Shown here in pieces: positions 41,327-61,960 of a DNA stretch of 64,000 nucleotides (positions are counted from its first letter, which is position 1; every line of letters begins with the position of its first letter). The DNA lies in NCBI RefSeq assembly GCF_024138675.1, contig NZ_CP090959.1:868001-932000 (forward strand), read 5' to 3'. The notes beneath the pieces were generated by a model. That model saw only the letters and a program-made list of their open reading frames with translations, was not told where the DNA came from and ran no database searches. This DNA comes from Simiduia sp. 21SJ11W-1 (GTDB lineage: Bacteria > Pseudomonadota > Gammaproteobacteria > Pseudomonadales > Cellvibrionaceae). The position numbers and the translations under genes were made by a program.

Positions 41327-41495
41327 TGGGGGCTCCCTGTGGTATAACGCTGTGGGCGGCGGTGTGTGGTTGGCGCGTAAATTTGTAACGCGGCGCTGCC
41401 TGTCATTTGGCAAATTATAGCGTCTTTTTCCCCGGGGTTTGCTAGGTCAATGCGTACGGGCGAGCGCTGGTTAACATGCATACAAGGAGATTTTT

Positions 41496-42329: not shown

Positions 42330-43070
42330 GTGGCGGAATCAGCGGCAGAGCAGGCACAGGGTATTGCGGTGGCGGTAAGCCAGTGGAATGCGTGGCTGCC
42401 TGGCATTCAAGGCGTAGAGGCCTGTCGCCAGTGGGCTGCCGGGCAACTGGCCCCGAATAATGCCGAACAACCCGATGTGACTGCGGTGCCCGCCATGATG
42501 CGCCGGCGCTTGAATGGGGTGGGTCGCCAAGTGGCCGCCGTCAGCTGGGATATGATTGCCGAGGGGTCTACAGAGCCCATGGTGTTTGCCTCCCGCCACG
42601 GTGATCAGGGCCGCACCCTGCAGCTTATGGGAGAGCTTAATGCTGGTGAACCCTTGTCGCCTGCGGCTTTCAGCATGTCGGTACACAATGCCGTAGCCGG
42701 CGTGCTCTCCATCGCCAAGAAAGCCCGCGGGCCCATGACCGCCCTTGCCGCCCATGATCAGCTGGTTTCATCGGCGGTGCTTGAGGCCTGGGGCCAGTTG
42801 ATGGCTGGCGCGGCCTCGGTTTTGGTGGTGATTTACGATCAGCCCCTGCCGGAGGCCTATGGCGCAAGCGAGCCCCTGCCTGCCTATGCACTGACGATGC
42901 GGCTTAGGCGGGCTGCCCATAATGAAGCTATGTGCTTGCAAGGGAATTGGGAGCAGGCGAGTTGCGCGCCCGGGTTAGACGATGGATTGGCGTGGCTGCG
43001 TTGGTTGGCGAGCGATCAGCCTGCGCTTACGCTCGAAGGTGAGTTGCAGAGATGGCACTGGAAAAAGTAG
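42330..43070 (+). CDS. apeC: Beta-ketoacyl synthase chain-length-factor-like protein (ApeC)
   Basis: This is a half-length thiolase-fold protein (PF13723 type) of 246 residues that in aryl polyene systems pairs with the ketosynthase ApeO. SQWNAWLPGI is the usual N-terminal feature and AFSMSVHNAVAGVLSIAKKA the conserved core. It lacks the active-site Cys of a true ketosynthase, as expected for a chain-length factor. I chose GTG with GGGGA five bases upstream; an earlier GTG would add eight residues. First gene of the pigment operon; the next gene overlaps it by 19 bases. Confidence 0.88.
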   Translation: MAESAAEQAQGIAVAVSQWNAWLPGIQGVEACRQWAAGQLAPNNAEQPDVTAVPAMMRRRLNGVGRQVAAVSWDMIAEGSTEPMVFASRHGDQGRTLQLMGELNAGEPLSPAAFSMSVHNAVAGVLSIAKKARGPMTALAAHDQLVSSAVLEAWGQLMAGAASVLVVIYDQPLPEAYGASEPLPAYALTMRLRRAAHNEAMCLQGNWEQASCAPGLDDGLAWLRWLASDQPALTLEGELQRWHWKK

Positions 43071-43861
43071 GCCAAAAAATCAACTGGTGCTGGCGGTTAG
43101 TGGCTACCGGGTTTAGTTTCACCCTGTTCGGCGTGGGCGGGCTCATTGTGCCCTTGTACGCCGTACCTTGGCTGCTGATGACCCGCGCAGGCGAGGTCCG
43201 CGAGCGCCGGGCGCGCTGGCTTGTGCACATTCACTTCCGCTTTTTTATCAACATGATGCGCGCATTGGGCATCATGACCTATTCACTGCAAGGCTTAGAG
43301 CGGCTGAAGGCGCCCGGGCAGTTGATTCTGGCTAATCACCCGTCGCTTGTGGACGTGGTGTTGTTGATTGGCCTGTTGCCACGGGCCGATTGTGTGGTGA
43401 AGGGGGGCTTGTTGCGCAACCCGTTTATGCGCACGGTCATTAAGCTTGCCGGCTACATTGCCAATGACAATCCCGAGCAAGTGCTGCAAGATGCTCGGGC
43501 GTCGCTCGCGCGGGGTAATAGCCTGATTATTTTCCCCGAGGGTACGCGCACAGTGCCAGGCCAGCGGCTGAAACTGCAGCGCGGCGCCGCCAACGTGGCC
43601 TTGCGGTTGAATTTACCCATTCGCCCGGTGGTGATAGTGGTAACGCCGCCCACGCTAACCAAGTATGTGCCCTGGTATAAGATCCCGCCCACTGGGCCGT
43701 TTCACATGGCGCTGGCGGTAAAGCCTCAGCTTGCGCCGGGCGAATTAGAAATGCAGGCAGACATACCCGCCAGTTTGGCTGCCAGGCAATTAACCAAGCG
43801 ATTAGAACAATATTTTACCGAGGAATTGACCCACTATGCGGGCGCTAGAGCAAGAACTTAA
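43052..43861 (+). CDS. apeD: Lysophospholipid-type acyltransferase (ApeD)
   Basis: This 269-residue PlsC-family acyltransferase has N-terminal hydrophobic helices (about 15-45), the catalytic HX4D in LANHPSLVDVV and the substrate-binding FPEGTR in LIIFPEGTRTVPG. In APE clusters it is thought to help attach the polyene to a membrane lipid. Its start lies inside apeC and its end overlaps the first ACP gene by 26 bases, so the three are translationally coupled. Confidence 0.9.
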   Translation: MALEKVGQKINWCWRLVATGFSFTLFGVGGLIVPLYAVPWLLMTRAGEVRERRARWLVHIHFRFFINMMRALGIMTYSLQGLERLKAPGQLILANHPSLVDVVLLIGLLPRADCVVKGGLLRNPFMRTVIKLAGYIANDNPEQVLQDARASLARGNSLIIFPEGTRTVPGQRLKLQRGAANVALRLNLPIRPVVIVVTPPTLTKYVPWYKIPPTGPFHMALAVKPQLAPGELEMQADIPASLAARQLTKRLEQYFTEELTHYAGARART

Positions 43862-44096
43862 GCAGCTGATTATCGACACCCTGGATCTGGAAGATATTAC
43901 AGCCGATGACATAGTGTCAGACGAGCCGTTATTTCTGGAGGGCCTGGGGCTGGATTCCATCGACGCCCTGGAGCTGGGTTTGGCGTTGCAAAAAACCTAC
44001 GGTGTAAAGCTCGATTCAGATTCAGAAGAAACCCGCCAGCATTTTGCCTCGGTCACGGCGTTGGCCAAATTCGTAGAATCTGCGAGGGCCAATTAA
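43836..44096 (+). CDS. apeE: Acyl carrier protein 1 (ApeE)
   Basis: This 86-residue acidic four-helix protein carries the phosphopantetheine Ser41 in GLGLDSIDALELG. It would hold the starter or growing polyene chain. The start lies within the acyltransferase gene. The second ACP follows with a one-base overlap. Likely activated by the PPTase at 40601. Confidence 0.96.
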   Translation: MRALEQELKQLIIDTLDLEDITADDIVSDEPLFLEGLGLDSIDALELGLALQKTYGVKLDSDSEETRQHFASVTALAKFVESARAN

Positions 44097-44341
44097 TGGA
44101 AACCCGTGAAGAAATTTTTGCAACCATCCAAAATATTATGGTTGATATGTTTGAACTTGATGCCGCCGAGGTTACCCTGGAGGCACACCTCTACGATGAT
44201 CTGGATATTGATTCCATCGATGCCGTAGACATGGTGGTTGAGCTTAAAAACCTCACCGGTAAAAAAATCAAACCCGACGATTTTAAAGCCGTGCGCACTG
44301 TGTCAGATGTTGTGGATGTTGTTGAAACTCTTGTGAAGTAA
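44096..44341 (+). CDS. apeF: Acyl carrier protein 2 (ApeF)
   Basis: This 81-residue ACP has the phosphopantetheine Ser40 in DLDIDSIDAVDMV. It differs enough from ApeE to suggest a division of labour. In the studied Xenorhabdus system one ACP takes the aryl starter and the other the elongating chain, as I recall. TAATG overlap with ApeE. Confidence 0.96.
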   Translation: METREEIFATIQNIMVDMFELDAAEVTLEAHLYDDLDIDSIDAVDMVVELKNLTGKKIKPDDFKAVRTVSDVVDVVETLVK

Positions 44342-44345
44342 ATCC

Positions 44346-44963
44346 ATGAGCAGCCTCGGAAAAGGGATCTTTGCGGGCTTGAGCTTGCTATACCCTTTTG
44401 CCATCTATTTTGGTGCGCAAACCTTCTCTCCCCGTTACCTGGTATTGGTGCTGTTATGCCTGGCGTTACTGCGCTGGTTTGGCAGTACGCCCTTTCCCGG
44501 CTGGTTGCAGGCCGTGTGGCTGGGCCTGGTGGCGTTGCTGGCGGCATTCTCACTCTGGGCCGATAGCCTTCTTGGGTTGCTGGTATACCCGGTGGCCATC
44601 AACCTGAGTTTGTTGCTGTTATTTGGCGCAAGCCTGTTGCAGGAGCAAACATTGGTGGAGCGCCTAGCGCGCCTGCAAGACCCAAATTTGCCCGTGGCCG
44701 CCATTGCCTATACCCGCAAGGTAACCTGGGTGTGGTGCGGATTTTTTCTGTTCAATGGTTCCATGGCGGCACTTACCGTGTGGTGGGGCGATCAAGAGCT
44801 GTGGCTTTTGTACAACGGCTTTGTTGCCTATGTACTCATGGGGCTGTTGGCTCTGGTGGAATACCTGGTGCGTTTGCGCCACCAGCGTCGTCACGCGCGC
44901 GGTGTGACCGATGTGGCCACACAGCCTGCACCCACCGGTGACACCGGGAGGCCCAAACCGTGA
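44346..44963 (+). CDS. apeG: COG4648-type membrane protein (ApeG)
   Basis: This 205-residue polytopic inner-membrane protein has about five to six hydrophobic helices (GLSLLYPFAIYFGAQTF, then YLVLVLLCLALLRWFG and others) and a charged C-terminal tail rich in Arg and His. This family is found in APE and related pigment clusters; its function is unknown. Four bases separate it from apeF, and it overlaps apeH by GTGA. Confidence 0.85.
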   Translation: MSSLGKGIFAGLSLLYPFAIYFGAQTFSPRYLVLVLLCLALLRWFGSTPFPGWLQAVWLGLVALLAAFSLWADSLLGLLVYPVAINLSLLLLFGASLLQEQTLVERLARLQDPNLPVAAIAYTRKVTWVWCGFFLFNGSMAALTVWWGDQELWLLYNGFVAYVLMGLLALVEYLVRLRHQRRHARGVTDVATQPAPTGDTGRPKP

Positions 44964-46333
44964 AGCTCTATCAAACCCTGGCTGCGCTGCAGGCGGCACC
45001 TAATGCCACGGTGGCGCACGGTGGCAGTGGTGTGCTTCGCGCAGAGGATTGGCTTGCGCAAGTGGCACGCTGGCGCGCTGCGATAAGCGCGCGCCCGGCA
45101 AGTATAAAGGTGGCTGTATTTCTGGCCGATAGCGCCGAGTTCGCCGCGGCAGTGTTTGCGCTTTGGTCGTGCGGGCGCGAAGTGTGGCTGGCCCCCAATA
45201 ACCTGCCCGCCACCACTGGCCAGTTGCAGGATCGCGTGGATGATTTTGTTGGTGAATTTCCAGCACTCACGCCAGATGTGGCGCCCTTCGCACCGGCGGC
45301 TGATGCATTGCCATTGCCTGCAGGCTGGTGCCTGCCCGCTGCGGCGCGTTTGGTGCTGTTTACCTCAGGCAGTAGCGGTGAGCCCAAGCAGGTAGCCAAG
45401 CAGCTGTGCCAGCTGGCTTTTGAAGTCGAGCAATTAGAGCGCCAGTTCGGTGGGGCGCTTGGGTGTGCGCCGGTGCTGGCCACGGTAAGCCATCAACACA
45501 TATACGGTTTGTTGTTTCGGGTGCTGTGGCCGCTGGCGGCTGGGCGCCCCTTCGCCCGCCAAACTCTGGAGTTTCTGGAAGACCTGCTGCACGTGGATTT
45601 GCAGGCCTTTGTACTGGTATCCAGCCCCACACATCTCGCCCGTTTGCCGCAGCCACTGGCTATTCCCGCTGGCCGCACCAAAATTGTATTCAGCTCGGGC
45701 GCGCCCTTAAGCGCCCGCGCCAGTTACGCGGCCAACAGTTGTTTTGGCAGCGATATCCTGGAGGTGCTGGGGAGCACCGAAACCGGCGGCATTGGTTGGC
45801 GTATCCAGCATGCGCAAGGAGCCTGTTGGCAGCCCTTCGAGGTTGTACAGGTTAAACCTGATGCGGAGTCTGTAATGTTGATTCGCTCGCCGTTTCTGGC
45901 CGCAGATGACTGGTATCGCAGCGCCGATGTAATCCGCCTGCAGGGCACAGGGTTTGAATTGCTGGGGCGTGCCGATCGCATTGTAAAAATTGAAGGCAAG
46001 CGCGTGGCACTAGAACAGCTTGAGCGCACCCTGCTGGCCTCGCCTTGGGTGCAGGATGTGCGCGTGCAGCCGGTTTCTCGCAGCTCACAGGTGGCCGAGC
46101 GCGATGAACTGGTGGTGTTACTGGTGCTGTCGCCAACTGGCGCCAGAGAGCTTGCCACCGAAGGCCGCAAGCAGCTAGTAGCGGCGCTTTCGCAATTGCT
46201 CGCCCAGGTGTTAGAGCGGCCATTGCGCCCCCGGCGCTGGCGCTTTTTAGGGCAGCTGCCGCGCAATAGTCAGGGTAAAATGCGCCTCGCCGATCTGGAT
46301 GCCCTGATCGCCGGGCAACCCCAGGCGGAATAA
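44960..46333 (+). CDS. apeH: AMP-dependent acyl-CoA/ACP ligase (ApeH)
   Basis: ApeH activates the aryl acid with ATP and loads it on an ACP. The 457-residue ANL enzyme has LFTSGSSGEPKQVAKQ (P-loop), EVLGSTETGGIGWR (A5-like), YRSADVIRLQGTGFELLGRADR (A7/A8-like) and the hinge VKIEGKRVALEQLE. The C-terminal Lys is in RNSQGKMRLADL. It starts with GTG overlapping apeG. With the ammonia-lyase downstream, the likely substrate is a cinnamate- or coumarate-type acid. Confidence 0.9.
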   Translation: MKLYQTLAALQAAPNATVAHGGSGVLRAEDWLAQVARWRAAISARPASIKVAVFLADSAEFAAAVFALWSCGREVWLAPNNLPATTGQLQDRVDDFVGEFPALTPDVAPFAPAADALPLPAGWCLPAAARLVLFTSGSSGEPKQVAKQLCQLAFEVEQLERQFGGALGCAPVLATVSHQHIYGLLFRVLWPLAAGRPFARQTLEFLEDLLHVDLQAFVLVSSPTHLARLPQPLAIPAGRTKIVFSSGAPLSARASYAANSCFGSDILEVLGSTETGGIGWRIQHAQGACWQPFEVVQVKPDAESVMLIRSPFLAADDWYRSADVIRLQGTGFELLGRADRIVKIEGKRVALEQLERTLLASPWVQDVRVQPVSRSSQVAERDELVVLLVLSPTGARELATEGRKQLVAALSQLLAQVLERPLRPRRWRFLGQLPRNSQGKMRLADLDALIAGQPQAE

Positions 46334-46378
46334 CAAAAACCACGCATTAGAAAAAGCGCCCAGGCGCCGGAAATCACC

Positions 46379-46750
46379 ATGCAGTCACGCAAGCCCAACA
46401 TTATCAGCGCCCAGGCCCTTGCGCCCAACGAGTGGCAGCTGGTGCTCGATATTCAGCCCACCTTGTTCTGGTTTCAGGGCCACTTTCCCGAGGCGCCCAT
46501 TTTGCCGGGCGTGGTGCAGCTTACCTGGGCACGCGAGCAGGCGCTCAGCCTGTGGCCAGAATCCCGTAACTGGTTGAGCCGGCTTGCGGGCATGGAGGCG
46601 GTTAAATTCCAGCAGGTGATTCGCCCGGGTGATACCGTGCGGCTAACCCTTACCCTTGATGAGGCGCGCAAGCGGCTGGGCTTCAGCTACGTTTGCGCCC
46701 AAAATAACGCCAAAAAATTTGCCTCCGGGCGCATGGTGCCAGCGCAGTGA
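46379..46750 (+). CDS. apeI: Hotdog-fold dehydratase subunit (ApeI)
   Basis: This 123-residue FabA/FabZ-like single hotdog has FQGHFPEAPILPGVVQLTWA, with the conserved His in GHFP. The acidic catalytic residue usual in the following helix (Glu in FabZ, Asp in FabA) appears to be replaced by Thr or Trp, so the subunit may depend on ApeP. It dehydrates beta-hydroxy intermediates of the polyene. Overlaps the next gene by GTGA. Confidence 0.88.
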   Translation: MQSRKPNIISAQALAPNEWQLVLDIQPTLFWFQGHFPEAPILPGVVQLTWAREQALSLWPESRNWLSRLAGMEAVKFQQVIRPGDTVRLTLTLDEARKRLGFSYVCAQNNAKKFASGRMVPAQ

Positions 46751-47493
46751 AGCCCTGTATTGTTATTCCGGTTTTCAATCACGAAACCTTGCTGCCCGCC
46801 ACGCTCGCCAAGGTGCTCACCTATGAGCTGCCGGTTATTCTGGTGAACGATGGCAGCGGGCCTGCGTGCTCACAAGTGATGCAGGCGCTGGCAGATGAAC
46901 ATGCACAGGTGCATTTGGTTTGCCTGGCACAAAACCGCGGCAAGGGTGGGGCGGTGAAAGCTGGCCTGCAAGCTGCCTTGGCGATGGGTTACAGCCACGG
47001 CTTGCAGGTGGATGCCGATGGCCAGCACAACCTGGAAGATATTCCGCGCTTTTTAGCGGCAGCTGCACGTACACCTGCTGCACTGATTTGTGGTGTGCCC
47101 GAATACGATACCAGTGTGCCCACCTTGCGCCACTATGCGCGCTACCTTACCCACGTGTGGGTGTGGATCAACACCCTCTCGCTTGGCATTAAAGATTCCA
47201 TGTGCGGCTTTCGCGTCTACCCGCTGGCACCAGTGTGTGCACTGCTCGCCAATGCCTACACCGGCAATCGCATGGATTTTGATCCCGAGGTGCTGGTGCG
47301 CTGGTTTTGGGCCGGCGGCGATCTCGTTAATCTGCCTACAGCGGTACACTACCCTGAGCAGGGGGTGTCGCATTTTTTGCCGGGGCTGGATAACTGGCTG
47401 ATCAGCTGCATGCACACGCGGCTGTTTTTTGGCATGCTGTGGCGCGCGCCACTGTGGTTACTGGGCTTAGCCCGCCGGGGGCGCTGCCTGTGA
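46747..47493 (+). CDS. apeJ: Family 2 glycosyltransferase (ApeJ, glycosyltransferase half)
   Basis: This 248-residue GT-A enzyme has VIPVFNHE (N-terminal strand), LVNDGSG, KGGAVKAGL and the metal-binding DAD in QVDADGQHN, ending in a hydrophobic amphipathic segment. It probably transfers a sugar to the polyene or its lipid anchor. In E. coli-type clusters this domain is fused to an acyltransferase; here the acyltransferase is a separate gene overlapping by GTGA. Starts with GTG. Confidence 0.9.
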   Translation: MKPCIVIPVFNHETLLPATLAKVLTYELPVILVNDGSGPACSQVMQALADEHAQVHLVCLAQNRGKGGAVKAGLQAALAMGYSHGLQVDADGQHNLEDIPRFLAAAARTPAALICGVPEYDTSVPTLRHYARYLTHVWVWINTLSLGIKDSMCGFRVYPLAPVCALLANAYTGNRMDFDPEVLVRWFWAGGDLVNLPTAVHYPEQGVSHFLPGLDNWLISCMHTRLFFGMLWRAPLWLLGLARRGRCL

Positions 47494-48431
47494 GTGCGAA
47501 GGCGCATTGGTCTGAAATGGCAGAGGCAGGGGCTGTTTGGGGCATTCGCCTGCTGCTTGCGTGCTTCCGGTTGTTTGGACGGCGGGTGTTCCGGGTATTT
47601 TTATGGCCGGTGATTGTGTACTTTTTTGTGCGCAGGCGGGCTGCGCGCCGGGCCTCGCTGGATTTCTTACAGCGCGCAGACACCTTTGCCGGGCGCACAC
47701 CCAAAAGGGGCTTGCATGCCCTTTGGCAAAGTTTGCGGCACTTTCTCACCTTTGGTGATATGGCGCTCGATAAACTGGCCGTGTGGCAAAACGCTTTTGA
47801 AGGCGAGGTGGTGATGCACGGGCGCCAGCTGCTACTCGATAACATTGCCGCGCGCACCGGTGCCGTGTTGTTGGTGTCGCACCTGGGCAATACCGAAGTG
47901 TGCCAATCTCTGGCAGAGCAACTGGGTGTGGCGCGGGTAAATGTACTGGTGCACACCGAGCATGCGCAAAAATTTAACAGCCTGTTGAGCGCCAAAGAGC
48001 AGGCCGAGCGTGTAAATTTGGTGCCGGTTACCGCCGTCACTCCGGCCACGGCCATGGCCCTTGAAGAAAAACTTGCCGCGGGTGAATTTGTGGCCATTGC
48101 CGCAGATCGCACGCCAGTCAGGGGCTCTGATACCGCGCGCAAACGCGAAATGCCCGCGCAATTTTTGGGCGCCGAGGCGGAGTTCCCCCAGGGCGCGTTT
48201 GTATTGGCGGCACTGCTTCGGCGGCCGGTGTTTTTTTTGTGTGCGGTAAAAACCGGCCAGCGCTACGACATTTATGTAGAGCCGTTGGCCGAGCGCTTTA
48301 AAATGAAGCGCAGCGATCGCTTGGGCTCACTGGCCGGTTACGTGCAAACCTATGCCGATAAGCTTGCCCATTACGCCGTGCGCTACCCTCTGCAGTGGGG
48401 CAATTTTTACGATTTTTGGCGCCGCGATTAA
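47490..48431 (+). CDS. LpxL/HtrB-type acyltransferase (ApeJ, acyltransferase half)
   Basis: This 313-residue protein has an N-terminal hydrophobic helix (about 20-45) and a lysophospholipid acyltransferase-like domain: LLVSHLGNTEVCQSLAEQLG supplies the HX4E-type His-Glu pair, and FVAIAADRTPVRGSDTARKRE the second block. It resembles lipid A late acyltransferases. I chose the GTG that overlaps the upstream stop; the longer frame starts inside the glycosyltransferase gene. The next gene follows 54 bases later. Confidence 0.87.
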   Translation: MSAKAHWSEMAEAGAVWGIRLLLACFRLFGRRVFRVFLWPVIVYFFVRRRAARRASLDFLQRADTFAGRTPKRGLHALWQSLRHFLTFGDMALDKLAVWQNAFEGEVVMHGRQLLLDNIAARTGAVLLVSHLGNTEVCQSLAEQLGVARVNVLVHTEHAQKFNSLLSAKEQAERVNLVPVTAVTPATAMALEEKLAAGEFVAIAADRTPVRGSDTARKREMPAQFLGAEAEFPQGAFVLAALLRRPVFFLCAVKTGQRYDIYVEPLAERFKMKRSDRLGSLAGYVQTYADKLAHYAVRYPLQWGNFYDFWRRD

Positions 48432-48485
48432 CGGCCCGCTTTACTTGGCGTGGTAAACGCCAAGTGCAATTAACTGGAAACTTTC

Positions 48486-50018
48486 ATGATCACGTTCGAC
48501 CACAACGCCAAAACCATTGAAGACATCGTAGCCGTTGCCCAAGGTGAGGCAGTGGCGCTTTCAGAGGCGCCGGAATTTTTACAAAAAATAAAAGCCGGCA
48601 GCGATTTTCTGGATCGCCTGCTCGCAGAAGAAGGCAATATTTACGGCGTGACTACAGGCTACGGCGACTCTTGCACGGTGACCATTCCCACGGAGCTTGT
48701 GAAAGATTTACCGCAACACCTCTACACCTTTCATGGCTGTGGTTTAGGTGAATTATTGCCGGTGCCCGCAGCGCGCGCGGTACTGGCGGTGCGCCTGCAG
48801 TCTTTGTGTCAGGGGGTGTCGGGCGTGAGTGTGCAATTGCTTGAGCAGCTCACCCGGCTCATCACCCACGACATAGTGCCGCTCATACCGCAAGAGGGCT
48901 CTGTGGGTGCCAGTGGTGATTTAACGCCGCTTTCTTATGTGGCTGCCGTATTGTGTGGCGAGCGTGAAGTTTTCCACCGTGGCCAGCGGCGCCCAACGGC
49001 TGAGGTGTTTGATGAGCTTAACATCACGCCCCTAACACTGCGCCCGAAAGAGGGCCTGGCCATCATGAATGGCACCGCGGTGATGACCGCCATCGCCTCG
49101 CTTGCCTACAAGCGCGCCGAGTATCTGGCACAATTGGCCACCCGCATTACCGCGCTGGCCACACTGGCCAGCAAAGGCAACGCGCACCACTTCGACGAAA
49201 TTTTATTCAGCGTAAAACCGCACCCGGGTCAGCAGCAAATTGCCAGCTGGCTGCGTGAGGATTTACATGCAGGCGAGCCGCCGCGCAACCCGCAACGTCT
49301 GCAAGATCGCTACTCCCTGCGCTGTGCCCCCCACGTAATCGGCGTGCTACAAGATGCGCTGCCGTTTATGCGCCAGCTCATTGAAAACGAAATTAACTCC
49401 GCCAACGATAACCCCATTATCGACGGCCCCGGCGAGCACGTACTGCACGGCGGCCACTTCTATGGCGGTCACATCGCCTTCGCCATGGACAGCCTTAAAA
49501 ACGCCGTAGCCAATGTGGCAGATTTGCTCGACCGGCAGATGGCCATGGTGGTAGATCCAAAATTTAACCACGGTTTGCCCGCAAATCTATCGGGCGCCAA
49601 AGGCGAGCGCCGGGCCATTAACCACGGTTTGAAAGCCGTGCAAATTGGTGCCAGCGCCTGGACTGCCGAAGCGCTCAAGCTCACCATGCCCGCCAGTGTG
49701 TTTTCACGCTCAACCGAATGCCACAATCAAGACAAAGTCAGTATGGGCACCATTGCCGCGCGCGATTGCCTGCGGGTGATTACCCTAACAGAACAAGTGG
49801 CAGCCGGTGCACTGCTGGCCATGTGCCAAGGCTTGGAGTTGCGTTTTGCCCAGGGCGATATTGCACCCGAAGGCGTGTCTGGCTCGCTGCATCAATTGGT
49901 GGCCGATGTGCGCGAGTACAGCGCTTTTATTGAAGAAGACCGCGCACTGGAGTATGAATTGCGCGCGCTTTGCCATGCCATCGAAACGCGGAAGTTTACC
50001 TGCTATGGCCAAGCGTAA
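48486..50018 (+). CDS. Aromatic amino acid ammonia-lyase (HAL/TAL family, MIO enzyme)
   Basis: This 510-residue enzyme uses the self-formed MIO cofactor from Ala142-Ser143-Gly144 (GSVGASGDLTPLSY). VTTGYGD (about 55-61) carries the catalytic Tyr, and NSANDNPI and QDKVSMGTIAARD are family blocks. The selectivity pair after Q-x-L (HLYTFHGCG) is Phe82-His83, not the Ser-His I recall for histidine lyases, His-Leu for tyrosine or Phe-Leu for phenylalanine lyases. Location in a pigment operon argues for an aromatic substrate, giving coumarate or cinnamate as APE starter. Histidine degradation genes are absent. Confidence 0.92.
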   Translation: MITFDHNAKTIEDIVAVAQGEAVALSEAPEFLQKIKAGSDFLDRLLAEEGNIYGVTTGYGDSCTVTIPTELVKDLPQHLYTFHGCGLGELLPVPAARAVLAVRLQSLCQGVSGVSVQLLEQLTRLITHDIVPLIPQEGSVGASGDLTPLSYVAAVLCGEREVFHRGQRRPTAEVFDELNITPLTLRPKEGLAIMNGTAVMTAIASLAYKRAEYLAQLATRITALATLASKGNAHHFDEILFSVKPHPGQQQIASWLREDLHAGEPPRNPQRLQDRYSLRCAPHVIGVLQDALPFMRQLIENEINSANDNPIIDGPGEHVLHGGHFYGGHIAFAMDSLKNAVANVADLLDRQMAMVVDPKFNHGLPANLSGAKGERRAINHGLKAVQIGASAWTAEALKLTMPASVFSRSTECHNQDKVSMGTIAARDCLRVITLTEQVAAGALLAMCQGLELRFAQGDIAPEGVSGSLHQLVADVREYSAFIEEDRALEYELRALCHAIETRKFTCYGQA

Positions 50019-51047: not shown

Positions 51048-53308
51048 AACCAAAGGCGCGATTAATTATGGCTGCAAGCTGGGCGCTGCTGTTGGTCGCA
51101 GCCGCAGTGTTGCTGTGCGTGCGCCTTGCAGATTATCGCTTCGATGCATCGCTGTTAAGCTTGCTGCCCGTTGAACAGCAGCAGGATATCGCCCATCAGC
51201 GTGCAGCACAGGCCAACGCCCATTTAACACAGCTGGTAGATCGCGAGTTGCTGGTGTTGGTGGGTGCAGAAACCGAAGCCCAAAGCGCCCATTGGGCGGG
51301 GCAGGTGCAAGCAAGGCTTGCCTCGAACGAACGCCAGGTGCAAGCCTTTGAACAAGGCCAGGCCAAGGCATTGGCAGAGGCTTACTTTCCCTACCGCTAT
51401 TTTTTATTGGCCCCTGAAGATCGCGCGCGACTTGCAAGTTCTCCCGAGCAGCTTGTGCAAGCTGCCCGCCGTCAGCTCTATTCACCCATGGGGGCGGGCT
51501 TTCAGGCGGTAGACGATCCGTTTTGGTTGTTCCAGCGCTATTTGCAATCACTGGCCGCCCAGTCGCCGGTGCAGTGGGTAGGCGGTTGGCCTACTTTATA
51601 TGGCGATACACGGGTATACCGGCTGCTGCGTTTTCGCATTGTTGGCAGTGCCTTTGATGCGCGCGCACAGGGTGATTTGGCCGATCAACTGGATGCGTTG
51701 CACGCAGAATTGCCCGCGGGTGTGCACTTGCTAAGCTCGGGCCTGGTGGTGCATGCGGCATACGGCGCGCGCATGGCCAAGCAAGAAATTTCAACCGTGG
51801 GTGTCGGGTCGCTCGTTGGTGTGTTATTGCTTTTGGGTGCGAGTTTGGGCGTGCGCTCGGTACTTGCGCTTTTGACCTGCGTGGGTGCCGGTGTGCTGGC
51901 CGCGATGGCCGCGAGTGTGTGGTGGTTTGAATCGCTGCATTTGATTACGCTGGCCTTTGGTGCATCGCTTATTGGTGTTGCCATTGATTACGGCATACAC
52001 GCGCGCATGGCGCTCAACAATGGCGAGCCCATGGGTAAACTCATGCCTGCGCTTGTATTGGGTTTGGTTACCAGCTTGCTGGCCTACGGTATTCAAGGCG
52101 CGTTGCCGTTTCCGGGCTTGCAGCAAATGGCGTTATTTTCCTGCGTGGGGTTACTGGGCGCCTGGCTAAGCACCTGTGTGTGGTTGCCGCTGCTGCCTAA
52201 GCATAAGGTACAGCCGCGCGCGTTGTTACATTGGGTTTTATTGTTTTGGCGCAGGTGCCCGCCGCTTGCCTTGCCGCGGGCATTGGTTCTGGGCGTGCTT
52301 GTGGGGGCGTTACTCGTGTTTTGGCAACTGCCTGGTGACGACCGGTTAACCAGCTTGCAAACCTCACCGCAGGCATTGATAAAACAAGAGCAGACATTCC
52401 AGCAATTATTTGAGCGCACAGGCCAAGGCCGGTTTTTTTTGGTAGTCGCGCAAACCGAAGCCGCACTTGATGAACAATTACTCGGCCTTAGCTCAGCACT
52501 GCAAAACTTGGTGGATGCGGGGGTAATCGGCGGTTTTCAATCGCTGCACGATTGGCGCCCGGCCCTTGGCGAACAAGCTGCCAACCGCGCGCACTATGAA
52601 AAATTACTCACCGAATTTGGCCCGGCGTTTTATGCATCGCTTGGGGCGCCCTCACTTTTTGGCGAGGCCTTAGCAGCATTTAAAGACGCCAGTGCACCAC
52701 TGGATTTGGCAACATGGCGTGCCACCATGGCGCAACCCCAGTGGTATTTTGAGCGCGATGGCCATCACTTTGCCATTGTGGCTTTGCAGCAGGTAAACGA
52801 TGTGGCGCCGCTTGCGGCGTTACATAACGCGCAGGTGCACTATGTGGATCGCCCGGCCATGATTGGCGAGCTTTTGGGGCATTACCGGTTGCAACTGCAA
52901 CTCTGGACGGCGGCCGCCATAGTGCTGGTTTTGGGCTTGCTAGTGTGGCGCTTGGGCGTTGCTGCGTTGCCGCTATTGGCGGTGCCGGTGGTTGCTGTGG
53001 TGCTGGTGGCTATGGGCTTGGCCTATGGCCAGTCGCTCACCTTATTTCATTGCCTGGCGCTGTTGTTGGTGCTGGGTATTGGTTTTGACAGCTGTATTTT
53101 TTTGTGGCGGGCAAGTGATGTGGCACAGGTGTGGCAGGCCACCAGTTTGTCGGTAGTAACCAGCGGCATTTCCTTTGGCTTATTGGCGCTTAGCAATACG
53201 CCGGTGCTGCACTTTTTTGGCGTAACGGTGTTGTGCGGCTTGGCGTTGGTGTGGCTTGGTATCCCCTGTGTGTACAAAGGCGTGCGTGCTATGGGCGAGC
53301 AGCATTAA
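51044..53308 (+). CDS. apeM: MMPL-family exporter (ApeM)
   Basis: This 754-residue RND-like membrane protein has an N-terminal helix, a periplasmic domain to about residue 240, a helix cluster (about 245-385), a second periplasmic domain and a second cluster (about 615-745). ASLIGVAIDYGIHARMALNN and LLVLGIGFDSCIFLWRASD are the paired MMPL motifs. It should export the polyene lipid from the inner membrane. Starts with GTG. A 77-base AT-rich gap follows before the flavoprotein gene. Confidence 0.9.
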   Translation: MKPKARLIMAASWALLLVAAAVLLCVRLADYRFDASLLSLLPVEQQQDIAHQRAAQANAHLTQLVDRELLVLVGAETEAQSAHWAGQVQARLASNERQVQAFEQGQAKALAEAYFPYRYFLLAPEDRARLASSPEQLVQAARRQLYSPMGAGFQAVDDPFWLFQRYLQSLAAQSPVQWVGGWPTLYGDTRVYRLLRFRIVGSAFDARAQGDLADQLDALHAELPAGVHLLSSGLVVHAAYGARMAKQEISTVGVGSLVGVLLLLGASLGVRSVLALLTCVGAGVLAAMAASVWWFESLHLITLAFGASLIGVAIDYGIHARMALNNGEPMGKLMPALVLGLVTSLLAYGIQGALPFPGLQQMALFSCVGLLGAWLSTCVWLPLLPKHKVQPRALLHWVLLFWRRCPPLALPRALVLGVLVGALLVFWQLPGDDRLTSLQTSPQALIKQEQTFQQLFERTGQGRFFLVVAQTEAALDEQLLGLSSALQNLVDAGVIGGFQSLHDWRPALGEQAANRAHYEKLLTEFGPAFYASLGAPSLFGEALAAFKDASAPLDLATWRATMAQPQWYFERDGHHFAIVALQQVNDVAPLAALHNAQVHYVDRPAMIGELLGHYRLQLQLWTAAAIVLVLGLLVWRLGVAALPLLAVPVVAVVLVAMGLAYGQSLTLFHCLALLLVLGIGFDSCIFLWRASDVAQVWQATSLSVVTSGISFGLLALSNTPVLHFFGVTVLCGLALVWLGIPCVYKGVRAMGEQH

Positions 53309-53385
53309 CAGGCATTCGGCCGGGTTATTAACTTTACAATATTTTATATGAACGATCTTAAGGCGCGCGGCCAAGGGCAATTGCA

Positions 53386-54621
53386 ATGACGAATGTGGAT
53401 GTGGCGATTATTGGTGCCGGGCCCTCGGGCAGTGTGGCGGCGGCAATGTTGTTAGACAGGGGCTATAAAGTGGCCGTGGTTGAGCGCGCAGAGTTTCCGC
53501 GCTTTTCCATTGGTGAAAGCCTGTTGCCCCAATGCATGGCATTTTTGCAGGAGGCGGGCCTTGCCGAGGTGATCGAGCAGGCCGGTTTCCAGTTTAAAAA
53601 TGGCGCGGCTTTTCATCGGCAGGGCGCAGATACCGCCTTCGATTTTCAGGATAAATTCAGCAAAGGCCCCGGTACCACCTTTCAGGTAGAGCGAGCACGC
53701 TTTGACCACCTGTTAATTGAAGCAGCCGCCCGCCGCGGTGCGCTGGTAAAGTACCGCCACGAAGTGCTGGCTTTCCAGCGCAAAGGCCAGGTGAGCGAGC
53801 TTGAACTTCGCGACAGTGCCGGCAATCACTCGGTGCTGTCTGCGCGCTTTGTGTTAGATGCCAGCGGCTTCGCCCGCGTATTGCCAAGGCTGCTCAAGCT
53901 CGATAAACCCAGCAGCTTTCCTGTGCGCGCCTCCTTGTTTTGCCATATTGAAGACGGCATAGAAGATGGCGAATTTGATCGCAATAAAATTTTGATCACC
54001 GTGCACCCAGAATTTTGCGATGTGTGGTACTGGCTTATTCCCTTTGCTGGCGGGCGCTGCTCGCTGGGGGTAGTGGCAGAGGAATCGGTGTTGGCGGCAA
54101 TGCCTGGCGATCACACTGAAAAGCTGAAAGCCCTGGTGGCGGCCGCGCCCAATTTGCGCCAACTGTTAGCGCGCGCAAAATACACCATGGAGGCGCGCCA
54201 GATTGTGGGCTACGCCGCCGATGTATCGCAGTTATCCGGTGCGGGTTTTGCGCTGTTGGGCAACGCGGGTGAATTTTTAGACCCGGTTTTCTCAAGCGGT
54301 GTCACCATTGCAATGAAATCGGCACAGTTGGCGGTGGCCGCGGTTGATCGGGAGCTTTCCGGTGCCGGGGTAGATTGGCAAGCTGAATATGAAAAGCCCC
54401 TGCGCGCAGGGGTTGATTGCTTTCGCGCCTACGTAAACGCCTGGTACGACGGCCGCTTCCAGGACATTATTTTTGCCCGCGATCAAAACGAAAAAATTCG
54501 CCGCATGATCTGTTCGATTTTGGCAGGCTACGCTTGGGACATGAGCAATCCCTTTGTGGCAGAAAGTGAGCGCCGCCTGGATGTGTTGGCCCAAATGGTG
54601 CGCCTGCAGGAGCAAGGCTAG
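53386..54621 (+). CDS. FAD-dependent oxidoreductase, flavin-dependent halogenase-like
   Basis: This 411-residue flavoprotein has the FAD-binding motif GAGPSGSVAAAMLLDRGYKV (about 10-29) and FSIGESLLPQ. It carries both halogenase signatures: WYWLIP at 214-219 (WxWxIP) and FLDPVFSSG at 297-305 (FxxPxxSxG). It therefore belongs with tryptophan-halogenase-like enzymes, although related geranylgeranyl-reductase-like or hydroxylating members exist. In xanthomonadin and flexirubin loci similar genes are found, and some of those pigments are halogenated. It may halogenate or hydroxylate the aryl ring. No flavin reductase is nearby. Coupled to the next gene by TAGTG. Confidence 0.85.
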   Translation: MTNVDVAIIGAGPSGSVAAAMLLDRGYKVAVVERAEFPRFSIGESLLPQCMAFLQEAGLAEVIEQAGFQFKNGAAFHRQGADTAFDFQDKFSKGPGTTFQVERARFDHLLIEAAARRGALVKYRHEVLAFQRKGQVSELELRDSAGNHSVLSARFVLDASGFARVLPRLLKLDKPSSFPVRASLFCHIEDGIEDGEFDRNKILITVHPEFCDVWYWLIPFAGGRCSLGVVAEESVLAAMPGDHTEKLKALVAAAPNLRQLLARAKYTMEARQIVGYAADVSQLSGAGFALLGNAGEFLDPVFSSGVTIAMKSAQLAVAAVDRELSGAGVDWQAEYEKPLRAGVDCFRAYVNAWYDGRFQDIIFARDQNEKIRRMICSILAGYAWDMSNPFVAESERRLDVLAQMVRLQEQG

Positions 54622-55196
54622 TGCGCAAGGCCCGGCTGATATTGTGCGCGTTGATACTCGTGGCCAGTGGCTGCCAGCTTACGCGTGCACCTGCTGAACC
54701 TGTGCCCGCGCTCTTGGCCCCCTCGGCGCTGGGGCACACGTTGCAGGTGAGCCAGCAGCTCGCCATTGATAGCCAGGCTGGGCGGCGCAATCTATTGGTG
54801 GTGTGGTCTGTGGATGCACAGGCGTTGCAGGTGGTGGGCCTAACGGCCCAAGGGCGCAAGCTCTTTAGCCTGCGCTACGATGGCCAGCAATTGCACAGCG
54901 AACACCAGGTGCCCTTGCCCGGTGGTTTTTCGGGCGAGCGCTTTGTGCGCGAGCTGCAGTGGGCCTATTGGCCGGAAACCGACGTTCGCCAAGCGCTGCA
55001 GGCCGCAGGCTGGGGCTTGCAAACCACCGCCAACACGCGGGTGATCACCAACCCCGAAGGCCTGCAGATTAAGTACCATTTTGTGCAGGGCGCCTGGCCT
55101 GCCAGTGTGCGGCTGTCGCACTTTGAGCATTACCAAATGAAAATTGATACGCTGTCGGCGTCTGAAGTGAGCGCGCCCGCTGCGGGTGCAGATTGA
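54621..55196 (+). CDS. apeN: DUF3261 lipoprotein (ApeN)
   Basis: This 191-residue lipoprotein (MRKARLILCALILVASGCQ, lipobox ASGC with Cys18) is probably outer-membrane. The DUF3261 domain has LLVVWSVDAQALQVVGLTAQG and ELQWAYWPETDVRQALQAAGW. It recurs in APE clusters and may help the LolA-like protein insert the product, as LolB does, though this is inference. GTG start overlapping the previous stop. Confidence 0.87.
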   Translation: MRKARLILCALILVASGCQLTRAPAEPVPALLAPSALGHTLQVSQQLAIDSQAGRRNLLVVWSVDAQALQVVGLTAQGRKLFSLRYDGQQLHSEHQVPLPGGFSGERFVRELQWAYWPETDVRQALQAAGWGLQTTANTRVITNPEGLQIKYHFVQGAWPASVRLSHFEHYQMKIDTLSASEVSAPAAGAD

Positions 55197-55198
55197 GT

Positions 55199-56347
55199 AT
55201 GAGTCAAACGGTTTACATTCACGCACTGGGTTTAACCTCAGCCATGGGCACAGGCCTGGAAGCCCACCGCCAGGCGCTTGCCCGTGCGCCAAAGCTGAGC
55301 GAAACCCGGGCCTACAGCCCTGCGCAAGTGCGCCCGCTGGGCGTGGTTAACTGCGCGCTGCCGGATTTATCGCACAGCCCCAAGGCCGCCCAAAGCCGCA
55401 ACAACCAGCTGCTGTGGTCTGCCTGGTTGCAGCTGGCCGGGCACTGGGCGCGCCTTGCTGTTGATCCGGCGCGGGTGGCGGTGATCATTGGCACCTCCAC
55501 CTCGGGTATTGGCGACAACGAGGCAGATTTCGCCCCCGGTGCCGATACGGTGCCCCTGTATGAGCGCCAGCAAATCGCCGCACCGGCGCGCTTTTTGGCC
55601 AGTGAGCTTGGTATCAGTGGGCCGGCCTATACACTTTCTACAGCCTGTACTTCTGGCGCCAAGGCCATTGCCGCTGGCCGCCGATTGCTGCAGGCAGGCG
55701 TGGTGGATTGGGTGATCGCGGGCGGGGCAGATGCCTTGTGCGGGCTTACGGTGCAGGGCTTTTCGGCGCTCGATGCCATATCTGATGCGCCTTGCAACCC
55801 CATGAGTGCTAACCGCGCAGGCATTAATATCGGCGAGGCGGCGGCGCTGTTTTTGTTATCGCGCACGCCCGCCGAGATTGCCGTCACAGGCGTGGGCGAA
55901 AGCTCCGATGCCCACCACATCTCCGCGCCAGACCCACAAGGCGCAGGCGCCGAGCAAGCCCTGCGTGCAGCGCTGGCCGATGCGAGGCTCGCCCCGGGCG
56001 ATGTGGGCTACCTGAATTTGCATGGAACGGCCACGGAGCTCAATGATAAAATGGAGGCCCACGCCGTCGCCCGGGTGTTCCCCGAGGCATTGCCCTGCAG
56101 TTCCACCAAGCCTTTTACGGGCCATACACTGGGGGCCGCCGGTGCCCTTGAGGCGGGCCTGTGCGTGCTGGCGCTGCAAACCGGTGAGCTGCCGCCACAT
56201 CATTGGGATGGCCAGGCAGACAGCGCCTTGCCCGCCTTGAATTTGGTGCGCCCGGGCACGCACGCAGCCTGCGTGCATGCCATGAGCACATCCTTCGCTT
56301 TTGGCGGCAACAACATTGCGTTGTTATTGTCGCGGGTTTCGAACTAA
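55199..56347 (+). CDS. apeO: Beta-ketoacyl-ACP synthase (ApeO)
   Basis: This 382-residue ketosynthase has a full Cys-His-His set: Cys150 in STACTSGAKAI, His275 in NLHGTATELND and His309 in FTGHTLGAAGA. It elongates the polyene, presumably as a heterodimer with ApeC. The ATG two bases after the apeN stop is used; a TTG six bases earlier is possible. apeP follows after 8 bases with AAGGG. Confidence 0.95.
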   Translation: MSQTVYIHALGLTSAMGTGLEAHRQALARAPKLSETRAYSPAQVRPLGVVNCALPDLSHSPKAAQSRNNQLLWSAWLQLAGHWARLAVDPARVAVIIGTSTSGIGDNEADFAPGADTVPLYERQQIAAPARFLASELGISGPAYTLSTACTSGAKAIAAGRRLLQAGVVDWVIAGGADALCGLTVQGFSALDAISDAPCNPMSANRAGINIGEAAALFLLSRTPAEIAVTGVGESSDAHHISAPDPQGAGAEQALRAALADARLAPGDVGYLNLHGTATELNDKMEAHAVARVFPEALPCSSTKPFTGHTLGAAGALEAGLCVLALQTGELPPHHWDGQADSALPALNLVRPGTHAACVHAMSTSFAFGGNNIALLLSRVSN

Positions 56348-56355
56348 GGGTTGAT

Positions 56356-56841
56356 ATGGATAATTTGGCCACATTTATTGAGGGCGTGGCAGGCGAGCCG
56401 CCACGCTGGCCGCTGCCGGATCTGGTGCCCCACGCCAAGCCCATGAGCTTGTTGGATGAGGTGGTGCGCATTGGCGAGGGCGAGTTACTGGCCAAGGTGA
56501 CGCTCAACCCAGACAGCGTATTTGCCGGGCCCGAGGGTGTGCCAGCCCACGTGGGCATTGAGTATATGGCCCAGTCCATTGCCGCCTTTGCAGGCCACGC
56601 AGCGCTTGCCCGGGGTGAAAGGGTGCAATTGGGTTTTCTGGTGGGCACGCGCCGCTACCAAAGCAATGTGGCGCACTTTGCGCCGGGTGAAACCCTCTGG
56701 GTGCACGTGCAAGAGCTGGTGCAGGGCGACAACGGCCTGAGCGTATTTGAATGCCAGATCCGCTCGCACACGGCAAAGCTTGAGGCAAATTTAAATGTAT
56801 TTCAGCCAGAGGATGCGGCGCAATTTTTAGCGCAGGCCTAG
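56356..56841 (+). CDS. apeP: Hotdog-fold 3-hydroxyacyl-ACP dehydratase (ApeP)
   Basis: This 161-residue FabZ-like dehydratase has VPHAKPMSLLDEV with the catalytic His and HVGIEYMAQSIAAFAGH with the catalytic Glu. It thus carries the pair that ApeI lacks in part. It converts beta-hydroxyacyl-ACP to the trans-2-enoyl form. The ATG with AAGGG upstream is used; the longer frame lies within apeO. Confidence 0.92.
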   Translation: MDNLATFIEGVAGEPPRWPLPDLVPHAKPMSLLDEVVRIGEGELLAKVTLNPDSVFAGPEGVPAHVGIEYMAQSIAAFAGHAALARGERVQLGFLVGTRRYQSNVAHFAPGETLWVHVQELVQGDNGLSVFECQIRSHTAKLEANLNVFQPEDAAQFLAQA

Positions 56842-56868
56842 GCTAAGGTTTAACGGGTACAAGAGTTT

Positions 56869-57594
56869 ATGTCCAACACGGTATTAGTTACGGGCGCAAG
56901 CCGGGGCATTGGCGCGGCCATTGCCAAGCGTCTGGCGCAATCGGGTTTTGATTTGGTGCTGCACTGCCGCTCCGGGCGCGCCGAGTGCGAGCAGGTAAAA
57001 GCCCATGTTGAATCTTTAGGCCAGCGTGCACGCATTGTGCAATTTGATATCGCCGATCGCGCCCGGGTGCGCGAAATTTTATTGGCCGATGTAGAGGCCC
57101 ACGGTGCCTACTACGGCGTGGTGTGCAATGCAGGCGTCAATCGCGATACCGCCTTTCCGGCCATGACCGAAGAAGATTGGGACGCCGTGGTGCACACCAA
57201 CCTCGATGGTTTTTACAATGTCTTGCAGCCGCTTACCATGCCCATGGTGCGCCGTCGCAAGCCCGGGCGCATTGTGGTGATGTCGTCGGTGTCTGGCGTG
57301 ATGGGCAATCGCGGGCAGGTAAATTATTCGGCCGCCAAGGCGGGCCTGATTGGTGCCACTAAGGCGCTGGCGCTGGAGCTTGCCAAGCGCAAAATCACCG
57401 TAAATTGTGTGGCGCCGGGTTTGATTGAAACGGAAATGGTAAATGAAGAAGTGGCCGAGCACGCCCTGAAAATGATTCCGGCCCAGCGCCTGGGTCAGGT
57501 GCAGGAAGTGGCTGCGGCGGTGGATTTTTTAATGTCTGAAGATGCAGGTTACATCACCCGTCAGGTGATCTCGGTCAACGGCGGGTTGTGTTAA
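56869..57594 (+). CDS. apeQ: 3-oxoacyl-ACP reductase (FabG-like, ApeQ)
   Basis: This 241-residue short-chain dehydrogenase has TGASRGIGAAIAKRL (NADPH loop), CNAGVNRD, the catalytic Ser region MSSVSGVMGNRGQ with Tyr and Lys in NYSAAKAG, and ETEMVNEEV. It reduces each 3-oxo intermediate of the polyene. No enoyl reductase is present, which keeps the double bonds. Overlaps apeR by TAATG. Confidence 0.96.
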   Translation: MSNTVLVTGASRGIGAAIAKRLAQSGFDLVLHCRSGRAECEQVKAHVESLGQRARIVQFDIADRARVREILLADVEAHGAYYGVVCNAGVNRDTAFPAMTEEDWDAVVHTNLDGFYNVLQPLTMPMVRRRKPGRIVVMSSVSGVMGNRGQVNYSAAKAGLIGATKALALELAKRKITVNCVAPGLIETEMVNEEVAEHALKMIPAQRLGQVQEVAAAVDFLMSEDAGYITRQVISVNGGLC

Positions 57595-58817
57595 TGAAGC
57601 GGGTTGTAGTTACAGGTTTACAGGCAATCTCGCCCATCGGTAGCGATTGGCAAAGCGTGCACGCGCGTCTGGCCGAGGGGCGCTCGGGCATTCGCTATAT
57701 GCACGAGTGGGATAAGTACCAAGGCCTGAACACCCGCTTGGGTGGGCCGGCAGATTTTGACAAGCCCGCCCATTACAACCGCAAAGCCATTCGCAGTATG
57801 GGCCGGGTGGCGGTGATGGCCACCCGCGTCACCGAGCTTGCCCTAGAGCAGGCGGGCCTATTGGGCGACCCTTGCATTACCCAGGGCGATATGGGCGTGG
57901 CCTATGGCTCTTCCAGCGGCAGCACCAGCGCCTTTGTGGACTTTGGCCGCATGCTCATAGAAGAAGATACCGGCGGGCTGAATGCCAACTCCTACATTAA
58001 AATGATGGCCCACACAGCGCCTGTGAATGTGGGCGTGTTTTTTGGTTTAAAAGGCCGGGTGTACACCACATCCAGCGCCTGTACCTCCGGCAGCCAAGGT
58101 ATTGGCTACGCCTATGAAGCCGTGCGCAATGGCCAACAGCGATTTATGGTGGCCGGCGGTGCTGAAGAGTTGTGCGCAACCCAGGCGGCGGTGTTCGATA
58201 CCCTGTTTGCCACCAGCGTGAAAAACGACACCCCCGGGCTTTCCCCTCGCCCTTTTGATCGCGACCGCGATGGCCTGGTGATCGGTGAGGGTGCCGGTAC
58301 CTTGATTCTCGAAGAGCTGGAATCTGCGCGCGCGCGCGGCGCGAAAATTTACGCCGAGGTGGTGGGCTTTGGCACCAACGCCGACGGCTCACACGTTACC
58401 CAACCCAATTCAGACACCATGGAAGTGGCCATGCGTCTGGCCTTGCAAGATGCGGGGCTCGCGCCCGAGGCCGTGGGCTATGTATCTGCCCACGGCACCG
58501 CCACCGATCGCGGTGACGTGGCTGAATCTGCCGCCACACACCGGGTGTTTGGTGCGCGCATACCTATTAGTTCTATGAAAAGCTACACCGGCCACACCTT
58601 GGGCGCTTGTGGTGCCATTGAGGCCTGGGCGGCAATTCATCAAATGAACCAGGGGGAATTTCACCCCACGGTGAATTTACTGAACAAAGATCCGGAATGT
58701 GCCGAGCTCGATTATATTCAGAACCAGATGCGCGCCATTGATACCGAGTATGTGATGTCTAATAACTTTGCCTTTGGCGGCATTAATACCAGTTTGATTT
58801 TCAAGCGGTGGGCATAA
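57594..58817 (+). CDS. apeR: Beta-ketoacyl-ACP synthase (ApeR)
   Basis: This 407-residue FabF/FabB-like ketosynthase has Cys163 in SSACTSGSQGI, His300 in SAHGTATDRGD and His334 in YTGHTLGACGAIEAW. It is more complete and conventional than ApeO and may perform the first condensation on the aryl starter. Last gene of the operon, followed by a strong terminator. Confidence 0.95.
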   Translation: MKRVVVTGLQAISPIGSDWQSVHARLAEGRSGIRYMHEWDKYQGLNTRLGGPADFDKPAHYNRKAIRSMGRVAVMATRVTELALEQAGLLGDPCITQGDMGVAYGSSSGSTSAFVDFGRMLIEEDTGGLNANSYIKMMAHTAPVNVGVFFGLKGRVYTTSSACTSGSQGIGYAYEAVRNGQQRFMVAGGAEELCATQAAVFDTLFATSVKNDTPGLSPRPFDRDRDGLVIGEGAGTLILEELESARARGAKIYAEVVGFGTNADGSHVTQPNSDTMEVAMRLALQDAGLAPEAVGYVSAHGTATDRGDVAESAATHRVFGARIPISSMKSYTGHTLGACGAIEAWAAIHQMNQGEFHPTVNLLNKDPECAELDYIQNQMRAIDTEYVMSNNFAFGGINTSLIFKRWA

Positions 58818-60211: not shown

Positions 60212-60219
60212 CTAAATCC

Positions 60220-61915: not shown

Positions 61916-61960
61916 GTTATAAAGCAGCCGTGATTGTGGTTGCCAATCGGGGAGCACAAT

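Follow-up and report, generated by a model that had tools for sequence, protein, structure and literature searches.

An aryl polyene cluster of Simiduia with an ammonia-lyase and a halogenase-like flavoprotein, and the rarity with which that flavoprotein shares a cluster with a methyltransferase

Aryl polyenes (APEs) are yellow membrane pigments widespread among Gram-negative bacteria, and the structural work consulted rests on few examples, whose head groups are methylated or plain 4-hydroxyphenyl rings. The functions of the Escherichia coli ape genes are set out by Johnston et al. 2021 (PMC8253772), which, in the part of the paper available, gives head-group methylation for E. coli and flexirubin and halogenation for xanthomonadin. 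Here, a 19-gene APE cluster was analyzed at positions 42330-58817 of a 64,000-nt window, that is, the whole stretch of DNA under study, from contig NZ_CP090959.1 of Simiduia sp. 21SJ11W-1 (genome of 3.96 Mb in one contig). Coordinates are positions in this window unless a locus is named. The cluster itself is ordinary; the new point is the alternation of a halogenase-like flavoprotein and a methyltransferase near APE genes.

The E. coli CFT073 cluster (APE_Ec) has the same core genes in the same order from apeC to apeR, but it begins with apeA and the methyltransferase apeB, has a one-gene apeJ, and contains neither the lyase nor the flavoprotein. In Simiduia all genes lie on the + strand, separated by at most 77 bp and with several short overlaps, in the order apeC-D-E-F-G-H-I, glycosyltransferase, acyltransferase, lyase, apeK-L-M, flavoprotein, apeN-O-P-Q-R. 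The hallmarks of an APE cluster are present: a cysteine-bearing ketosynthase (KS; apeO, STACTSG) with a cysteine-less chain-length factor (CLF; apeC), two acyl carrier proteins (ACPs), an aryl-ACP ligase, ApeI- and ApeP-type dehydratases, a ketoreductase, and the CFT073 gene order apart from the two inserts and the split apeJ. Pfam matches above cut-off were obtained for the chain-length factor (Ketoacyl-synt_2), an acyltransferase, two PP-binding carriers, the AMP-binding ligase, the ApeI and ApeP dehydratases, a family-2 glycosyltransferase, an aromatic amino acid lyase, a 4HBT thioesterase, LolA, DUF3261, a FabG-like reductase and two ketosynthases. At E≤0.001 Pfam matched neither ApeG nor the second acyltransferase nor the MMPL-like exporter, and these three were assigned by position, tblastn relatives and comparison with the CFT073 cluster. 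In the list below, as throughout, counts out of 80 loci refer to the best 80 of 145 relatives matched in a scan of genomes with the flavoprotein.

42330..43070, + strand: apeC, chain-length factor without the C-x-S-G active-site cysteine motif (Ketoacyl-synt_2, Pfam 211 bits); GTG start at 42330, open frame extending to 42306
43052..43861, + strand: apeD, lysophospholipid-type acyltransferase (PF01553)
43836..44096, + strand: apeE, acyl carrier protein 1 (PP-binding; LDSID)
44096..44341, + strand: apeF, acyl carrier protein 2 (PP-binding; IDSID)
44346..44963, + strand: apeG, membrane protein (tblastn relatives in 63/80 loci; CFT073-like position)
44960..46333, + strand: apeH, aryl-ACP ligase, AMP-binding (PF00501); best NCBIfam match 4-coumarate--CoA ligase, 99 bits, under its cut-off of 334.7
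46379..46750, + strand: apeI, hotdog dehydratase (PF22818, ApeI-like)
46747..47493, + strand: glycosyltransferase family 2, equivalent to the N-terminal half of E. coli ApeJ (PF00535)
about 47517..48431, + strand: acyltransferase, equivalent to the C-terminal half of E. coli ApeJ (tblastn 38% to CFT073; NCBIfam acyltransferase matches weak and below cut-off)
48486..50018, + strand: MIO ammonia-lyase of PAL/TAL type, insert 1 (PF00221, 543 bits; ASG, Gln415, F82-H83)
50005..50463, + strand: apeK, hotdog thioesterase, ATG at 50005 (4HBT_2)
50460..51047, + strand: apeL, LolA-like carrier (PF03548)
51044..53308, + strand: apeM, MMPL-type exporter (tblastn relatives in 66/80 loci; 29% to the CFT073 MMPL gene)
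53386..54621, + strand: halogenase-like FAD enzyme, insert 2 (Trp_halogenase, 84.8 bits; K71, WYWLIP, GNAGEFLDPVFSSG)
54621..55196, + strand: apeN, DUF3261 lipoprotein-like (PF11659)
55193..56347, + strand: apeO, ketosynthase (STACTSG)
56356..56841, + strand: apeP, hotdog dehydratase (PF22817, ApeP-like); ATG start at 56356, open frame extending back to 56203
56869..57594, + strand: apeQ, ketoacyl-ACP reductase (FabG2 equivalog above cut-off)
57588..58817, + strand: apeR, ketosynthase (PRK09116.1 equivalog above cut-off)

An earlier reading of the letters and open reading frames (hereafter the sequence-only reading) had called an APE cluster at 42330-58817 with two additions to the E. coli-type set, the apeJ-apeK interval holding a lyase and the apeM-apeN interval a flavoprotein. 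Gene families and the CFT073 order bear this out, and both additions are absent from CFT073. It had also placed an ApeJ acyltransferase before the lyase; an acyltransferase does stand there, but apeJ is split, its glycosyltransferase forming a gene of its own. Its statement that no methyltransferase for the aryl ring is seen holds as well: there is none within the cluster, and E. coli ApeB searched against the whole genome gave as best hit a partial match elsewhere (23 bits, 24% identity), so that no ApeB was found. The in-cluster ApeB methyltransferase that marks the APE_Ec subtype is thus missing.

The window cluster is one ordinary example of an APE layout, common to many bacteria, that combines the lyase with the flavoprotein. 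The lyase lies between apeJ and apeK in 57 of the 80 loci, the flavoprotein lies between apeM and apeN/apeO in 61, and both inserts occupy the same slots as in the window in 53. Because both recur in the same slots in so many relatives, the layout is common and its content not new, contrary to the suggestion that it was notable. A lyase is encoded in at least 62/80 flavoprotein loci, a lower bound because some contigs or loci stop inside the cluster. The closest named relative by flavoprotein is Simiduia aestuariiviva (82% identical), and loci with this layout come, among others, from Shewanella, Pseudoalteromonas, Microbulbifer and Pseudomaricurvus; in several methanotroph loci the cluster is rearranged. 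The clusters of Pseudoalteromonas sp. THAF3 and Acinetobacter baumannii VB31459 match that of Simiduia nearly gene for gene: the two inserts occupy the same slots, and no methyltransferase is annotated in the stretch. Their records name the inserts 'aromatic amino acid (ammonia-)lyase' and 'NAD(P)/FAD-dependent oxidoreductase', and the two proteins are 55-65% identical to their Simiduia counterparts. They differ in an 'excinuclease' gene downstream and, in THAF3, an additional MipA/OmpV gene, while A. baumannii VB31459 has a longer ligase gene and no separately annotated ApeI gene. The sequence-only reading had named close, characterized clusters of identical content as what would count against it; identical content was found, but no chemically characterized example was. 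In the Neisseria gonorrhoeae records H19 and H22, the match to a relative of the flavoprotein is split into three pieces, which may reflect a broken gene.

To compare the flavoprotein with the methyltransferase, a PF22817 (ApeP) search covered 274 genomes at class level and 293 at order level. At a cut-off of ≥40 bits, 25/36 class matches and 56/88 order matches were kept (11 and 32 weaker ones were dropped), and with three genomes shared by both sets, that of this strain included, 78 APE-positive genomes resulted. Presence was scored within 25 kb of ApeP; distant halogenase-like matches were not scored as the flavoprotein, and draft contig ends may hide neighboring genes. The flavoprotein was found near ApeP in 52 genomes and an ApeB-like methyltransferase in 10: both in 1 (G444), flavoprotein only in 51, methyltransferase only in 9 and neither in 17 (Fisher p=1.3e-4). 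Within the 49 lyase-linked clusters the same table reads 1/35/8/5 (p=2.3e-5). The lyase and the flavoprotein showed no clear association with each other across the 78 genomes (both 36, the discordant classes 16 and 13, neither 13; p=0.14). The flavoprotein and the methyltransferase therefore rarely share one APE cluster, and this alternation is the new element of the analysis.

Several observations weigh against reading too much into this pattern. The genomes are not independent, kinship inflates the significance of the cross-table, and the association weakens to p=0.017 once every family contributes each state a single time. At the whole-genome level both enzymes occur in 5/78 genomes (association p=0.016), which rules out strict genome-level exclusion; in four of these five the odd enzyme lies apart from APE genes, save for one 30% reductase-like match, and in the fifth both enzymes are inside the cluster. 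Of 32 genomes chosen from the 80 named ones and searched for the methyltransferase, 7 gave a match at E≤0.001, and 4/32 have clear ApeB relatives (47-54% identity), all four located away from APE genes. Two related genomes whose APE cluster adjoins a methyltransferase carry a flavoprotein gene that stands alone, with no APE gene around it (L103, about 9903-11129; L104, about 9738-10961).

The slot itself can also be filled in another way. In G476 (L097:8372-10687) and G347 (L100:5691-8019), the apeM-apeN slot holds a Sulfotransfer_3 gene together with an ApeB-like methyltransferase, and neither genome yielded a flavoprotein. This content suggests a sulfated APE. With a sulfotransferase present as well, the idea that the methyltransferase simply replaces the flavoprotein is too plain for these two genomes and was dropped. 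Rare sharing and the different filling of the slot together suggest exchangeable head-group tailoring in APE clusters, and the alternation would agree with two alternative means of capping the ring at the same positions. As a tentative extension, which we consider possible but short of probable, APE clusters may carry exchangeable head-group modules, sometimes in one slot, the module being either a halogenase or a methyltransferase, the latter alone or with a sulfotransferase, and the GNAxEFLDP flavoproteins may mark a large unrecorded class of coumarate-started, halogenated APEs in marine gammaproteobacteria and Acinetobacter.

The residues of both inserts are consistent with the ammonia-lyase and halogenase-like labels given in the sequence-only reading. 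Among 63 lyases (62 loci plus the window, three odd-length sequences included), the ASG triad of the MIO group is present in 63/63. The selectivity pair is F-H, with Phe in 62/63 and Tyr in one, and the genome's own histidase has S-H. At the position that we take to correspond, in place and meaning, to the histidase glutamate Glu414 of Pseudomonas HutH, 62/63 lyases have Gln and one has a gap, whereas the genome's own histidase has Glu. The cluster enzyme thus has the ASG triad and lacks the histidase glutamate, as tyrosine/phenylalanine ammonia-lyases do, and a histidase identity is out because the genome encodes a separate HutH-like enzyme with Glu. A profile of four lyase sequences searched against solved structures matched a tyrosine aminomutase best (289 bits), followed by 2o78 (284 bits), 3czo (282) and 2o6y (280); with the window lyase alone as query, 2o78 came first. 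We take 2o78 and 2o6y to be Rhodobacter tyrosine ammonia-lyase and 3czo to be a PAL. The aligned aminomutase has the same His as the window lyase, a residue that presumably binds the tyrosine hydroxyl. The lyase stayed below every NCBIfam cut-off, its best model being the bagremycin/ferroverdin tyrosine ammonia-lyase (416 bits vs 1000). On the ASG triad, the F-H pair, the Gln and the structure matches, the enzyme reads as an aromatic and, judging by its residues, probably a tyrosine ammonia-lyase, although the F-H pair is ambiguous for substrate. Because it lacks the histidase glutamate and looks PAL/TAL-like, a coumarate starter appears likely.

For the flavoprotein, 81 sequences were surveyed, using what we take to be the accepted names of the halogenase motifs (lysine, WxWxIP, DPxFSSG and GD aspartate). 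The lysine motif is present in 81/81 (77 with the strict pattern, 4 with Tyr for Phe), as are WxWxIP and DPxFSSG, so that the lysine, WxWxIP and DPxFSxG signature of halogenases is complete. In an alignment of 42 sequences (38 of the 80 loci, the window and 3 distant halogenase-like proteins from other APE genomes), K71, W214, W216, I218, P219, D299, P300, S303, S304 and G305 are invariant. A sequence search against solved structures gave 3nix (350 bits), CndH (146) and ChlB4 (135). An AlphaFold model (mean pLDDT 94.5) superimposes best on 3nix (Z 57.5, rmsd 1.4, 405 residues aligned), a Cytophaga hutchinsonii flavoprotein with 42% identity over 405 residues and the same motifs, GNA included. 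After 3nix, the predicted fold is closest to carrier-protein halogenases; the next matches in order are ChlB4 (Z 46.5, rmsd 2.6, 399 aligned), PltA (46.2, 2.4, 401), Mpy16 (45.8, 2.6, 394), a Bmp2 triple mutant (45.5, 2.8, 384), FasV (45.0, 2.5, 378) and wild-type Bmp2 (44.9, 2.8, 387), followed by RadH (40.6, 2.6, 391) and CndH (40.5, 2.6, 356). ChlB4, PltA, Mpy16 and Bmp2 act on carrier-bound substrates. These four resemble the flavoprotein in fold at 24-29% identity, and ChlB4 and Mpy16 share its lysine, WxWxIP and DPxFSSG motifs, but where all four have the GD aspartate, the flavoprotein has Asn. In L106, L107, L109 and L110, distant halogenase-like proteins (31-33% identical, with GDAFAFLDP or GDAAGFIDP) adjoin APE genes; that of L108 (27% identical, GDALGFVDPMLSPG) adjoins exporter- and reductase-like genes, and the 9 kb of L111 contain no APE gene. 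One of these distant proteins is closest to FasV and CndH and not to 3nix.

Taken together, we somewhat favor a pathway in which this layout makes an APE with a coumarate (or 4-hydroxybenzoate) head that is tailored by the flavoprotein. The MIO lyase would deaminate tyrosine to 4-coumarate; ApeH would load coumarate, or 4-hydroxybenzoate made by UbiC, on an ACP; ApeO-C, Q, I and P would assemble the polyene; and K, J, D, L, M and N would release, lipidate and export it. The flavoprotein would tailor the phenol ring, most likely by halogenating a carrier-bound substrate next to the hydroxyl, a step that would take the place of ApeB methylation. Should it prove to be a halogenase, halogenated APEs would be products of many marine bacteria and of Acinetobacter; no report of such compounds was met in literature searches. 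A characterization of the flavoprotein is absent from the available parts of PMC3691225, PMC11573776 and PMC7551054, and the 2014 Cell paper on APE clusters may hold an earlier description.

The case for halogenation has points against it, and most of them would suit an enzyme that hydroxylates or otherwise oxidizes the ring (giving a catechol head) or the polyene, with halogenase-like motifs merely inherited. GNA replaces GDA in 81/81 flavoproteins, so that the aspartate of the GDAxxFxDP FAD-binding loop expected of flavin-dependent halogenases is Asn; the nearest structure, 3nix, likewise has GNA, is labelled flavoprotein/dehydrogenase and has no assigned function. Phenol hydroxylases have the same fold (best listed Z 36.8, rmsd 2.7, 365 aligned; in general Z about 36), and the halogenase CmlS (Z 36.8, rmsd 2.8, 373) scores no better than they do. 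No flavin reductase appeared among the families found in the cluster by the Pfam/NCBIfam scan. The flavoprotein also occurs in methanotrophs, e.g. Methylobacter and Crenothrix, and to our knowledge no halogenated pigment is known from such bacteria. Yet the lysine, WxWxIP and DPxFSSG are all retained, and the Z-scores to ChlB4, PltA, Mpy16 and Bmp2 exceed those of the hydroxylases by 8-10, which leaves oxidation the less probable role. The coumarate head is open to challenge too: UbiC is encoded in the genome, so 4-hydroxybenzoate is also available and coumarate is therefore not required. The starter could then be 4-hydroxybenzoate, as in E. coli and Xenorhabdus, with the lyase product having another fate or a minor role. 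This 4-hydroxybenzoate starter was used with A. baumannii enzymes, according to the available part of PMC8041823, and an A. baumannii cluster also has the lyase; moreover, 29/78 APE-positive genomes have no lyase of this group near ApeP. The fixed position of the lyase between apeJ and apeK in most loci argues the other way, and we regard a 4-hydroxybenzoate starter as rather doubtful here.

The coumarate-headed, flavoprotein-tailored APE also has to be set against the proposal, made in the sequence-only reading, of a product intermediate between APE, flexirubin and xanthomonadin types. Such a hybrid could draw on the NCBIfam naming of a flexirubin tyrosine ammonia-lyase, on a DarB-like ketosynthase in the genome, and on xanthomonadin-type clusters (Xanthomonas, Lysobacter, Azoarcus), which share KS-CLF type polyene machinery with the window cluster. 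In the available text of Wang et al. 2013 (PMC3691225), a number of genomes have halogenase genes next to the KS-CLF pair, and the xanthomonadin clusters of Xanthomonas are reported to include a halogenase gene; the part of PMC3949708 available lists Azoarcus arcA as a halogenase; Lysobacter, by these sources, has none. The evidence from the locus runs the other way. The FlxA tyrosine ammonia-lyase and FlxB reductase equivalogs stay under cut-off in the window cluster (337 bits vs 700 and 273 vs 340), the gene order is that of E. coli APE, and the same layout is common in gammaproteobacteria. The full-length DarB-like gene, the genome's only long match of this type, lies about 2 Mb from the cluster, at about 3.05 Mb (L120:6674-9374), under both cut-offs (376 bits vs 450 for NF005293, 338 vs 550 for NF053539), among unrelated neighbors including haem-oxygenase-like and DUF6999 genes; the 6 frames scanned there, ketosynthase included, revealed no resorcinol cluster. 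The flavoprotein shares only about 32% identity with the halogenase-like proteins encoded next to certain other APE clusters. Xanthomonadin-type clusters use a XanB2-type enzyme for the head, and no such chorismate enzyme was seen among the 9 flanking genes scanned, the rest of the genome not having been searched for XanB2. A hybrid is thus very improbable. The DarB-like locus L120 is possibly another small natural-product locus.

Two sets of flanking genes were considered. The upstream one is a single gene:

40601..41413, - strand: 4'-phosphopantetheinyl transferase-like gene (ACPS, 31 bits)

It possibly has a role in carrier activation. Downstream, convergent genes at 58871-61987 encode a class-II DAHP synthase, an aminotransferase and a MarR regulator. 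These genes adjoin the cluster in only 1/80 loci, that of the congener Simiduia aestuariiviva (L003), although 76/80 loci extend >1.5 kb past apeR, and for this reason they were left out of the cluster and not counted as its precursor supply. In the A. baumannii record, a phosphopantetheinyl transferase-like gene also adjoins the APE cluster (L112:19905-20561).

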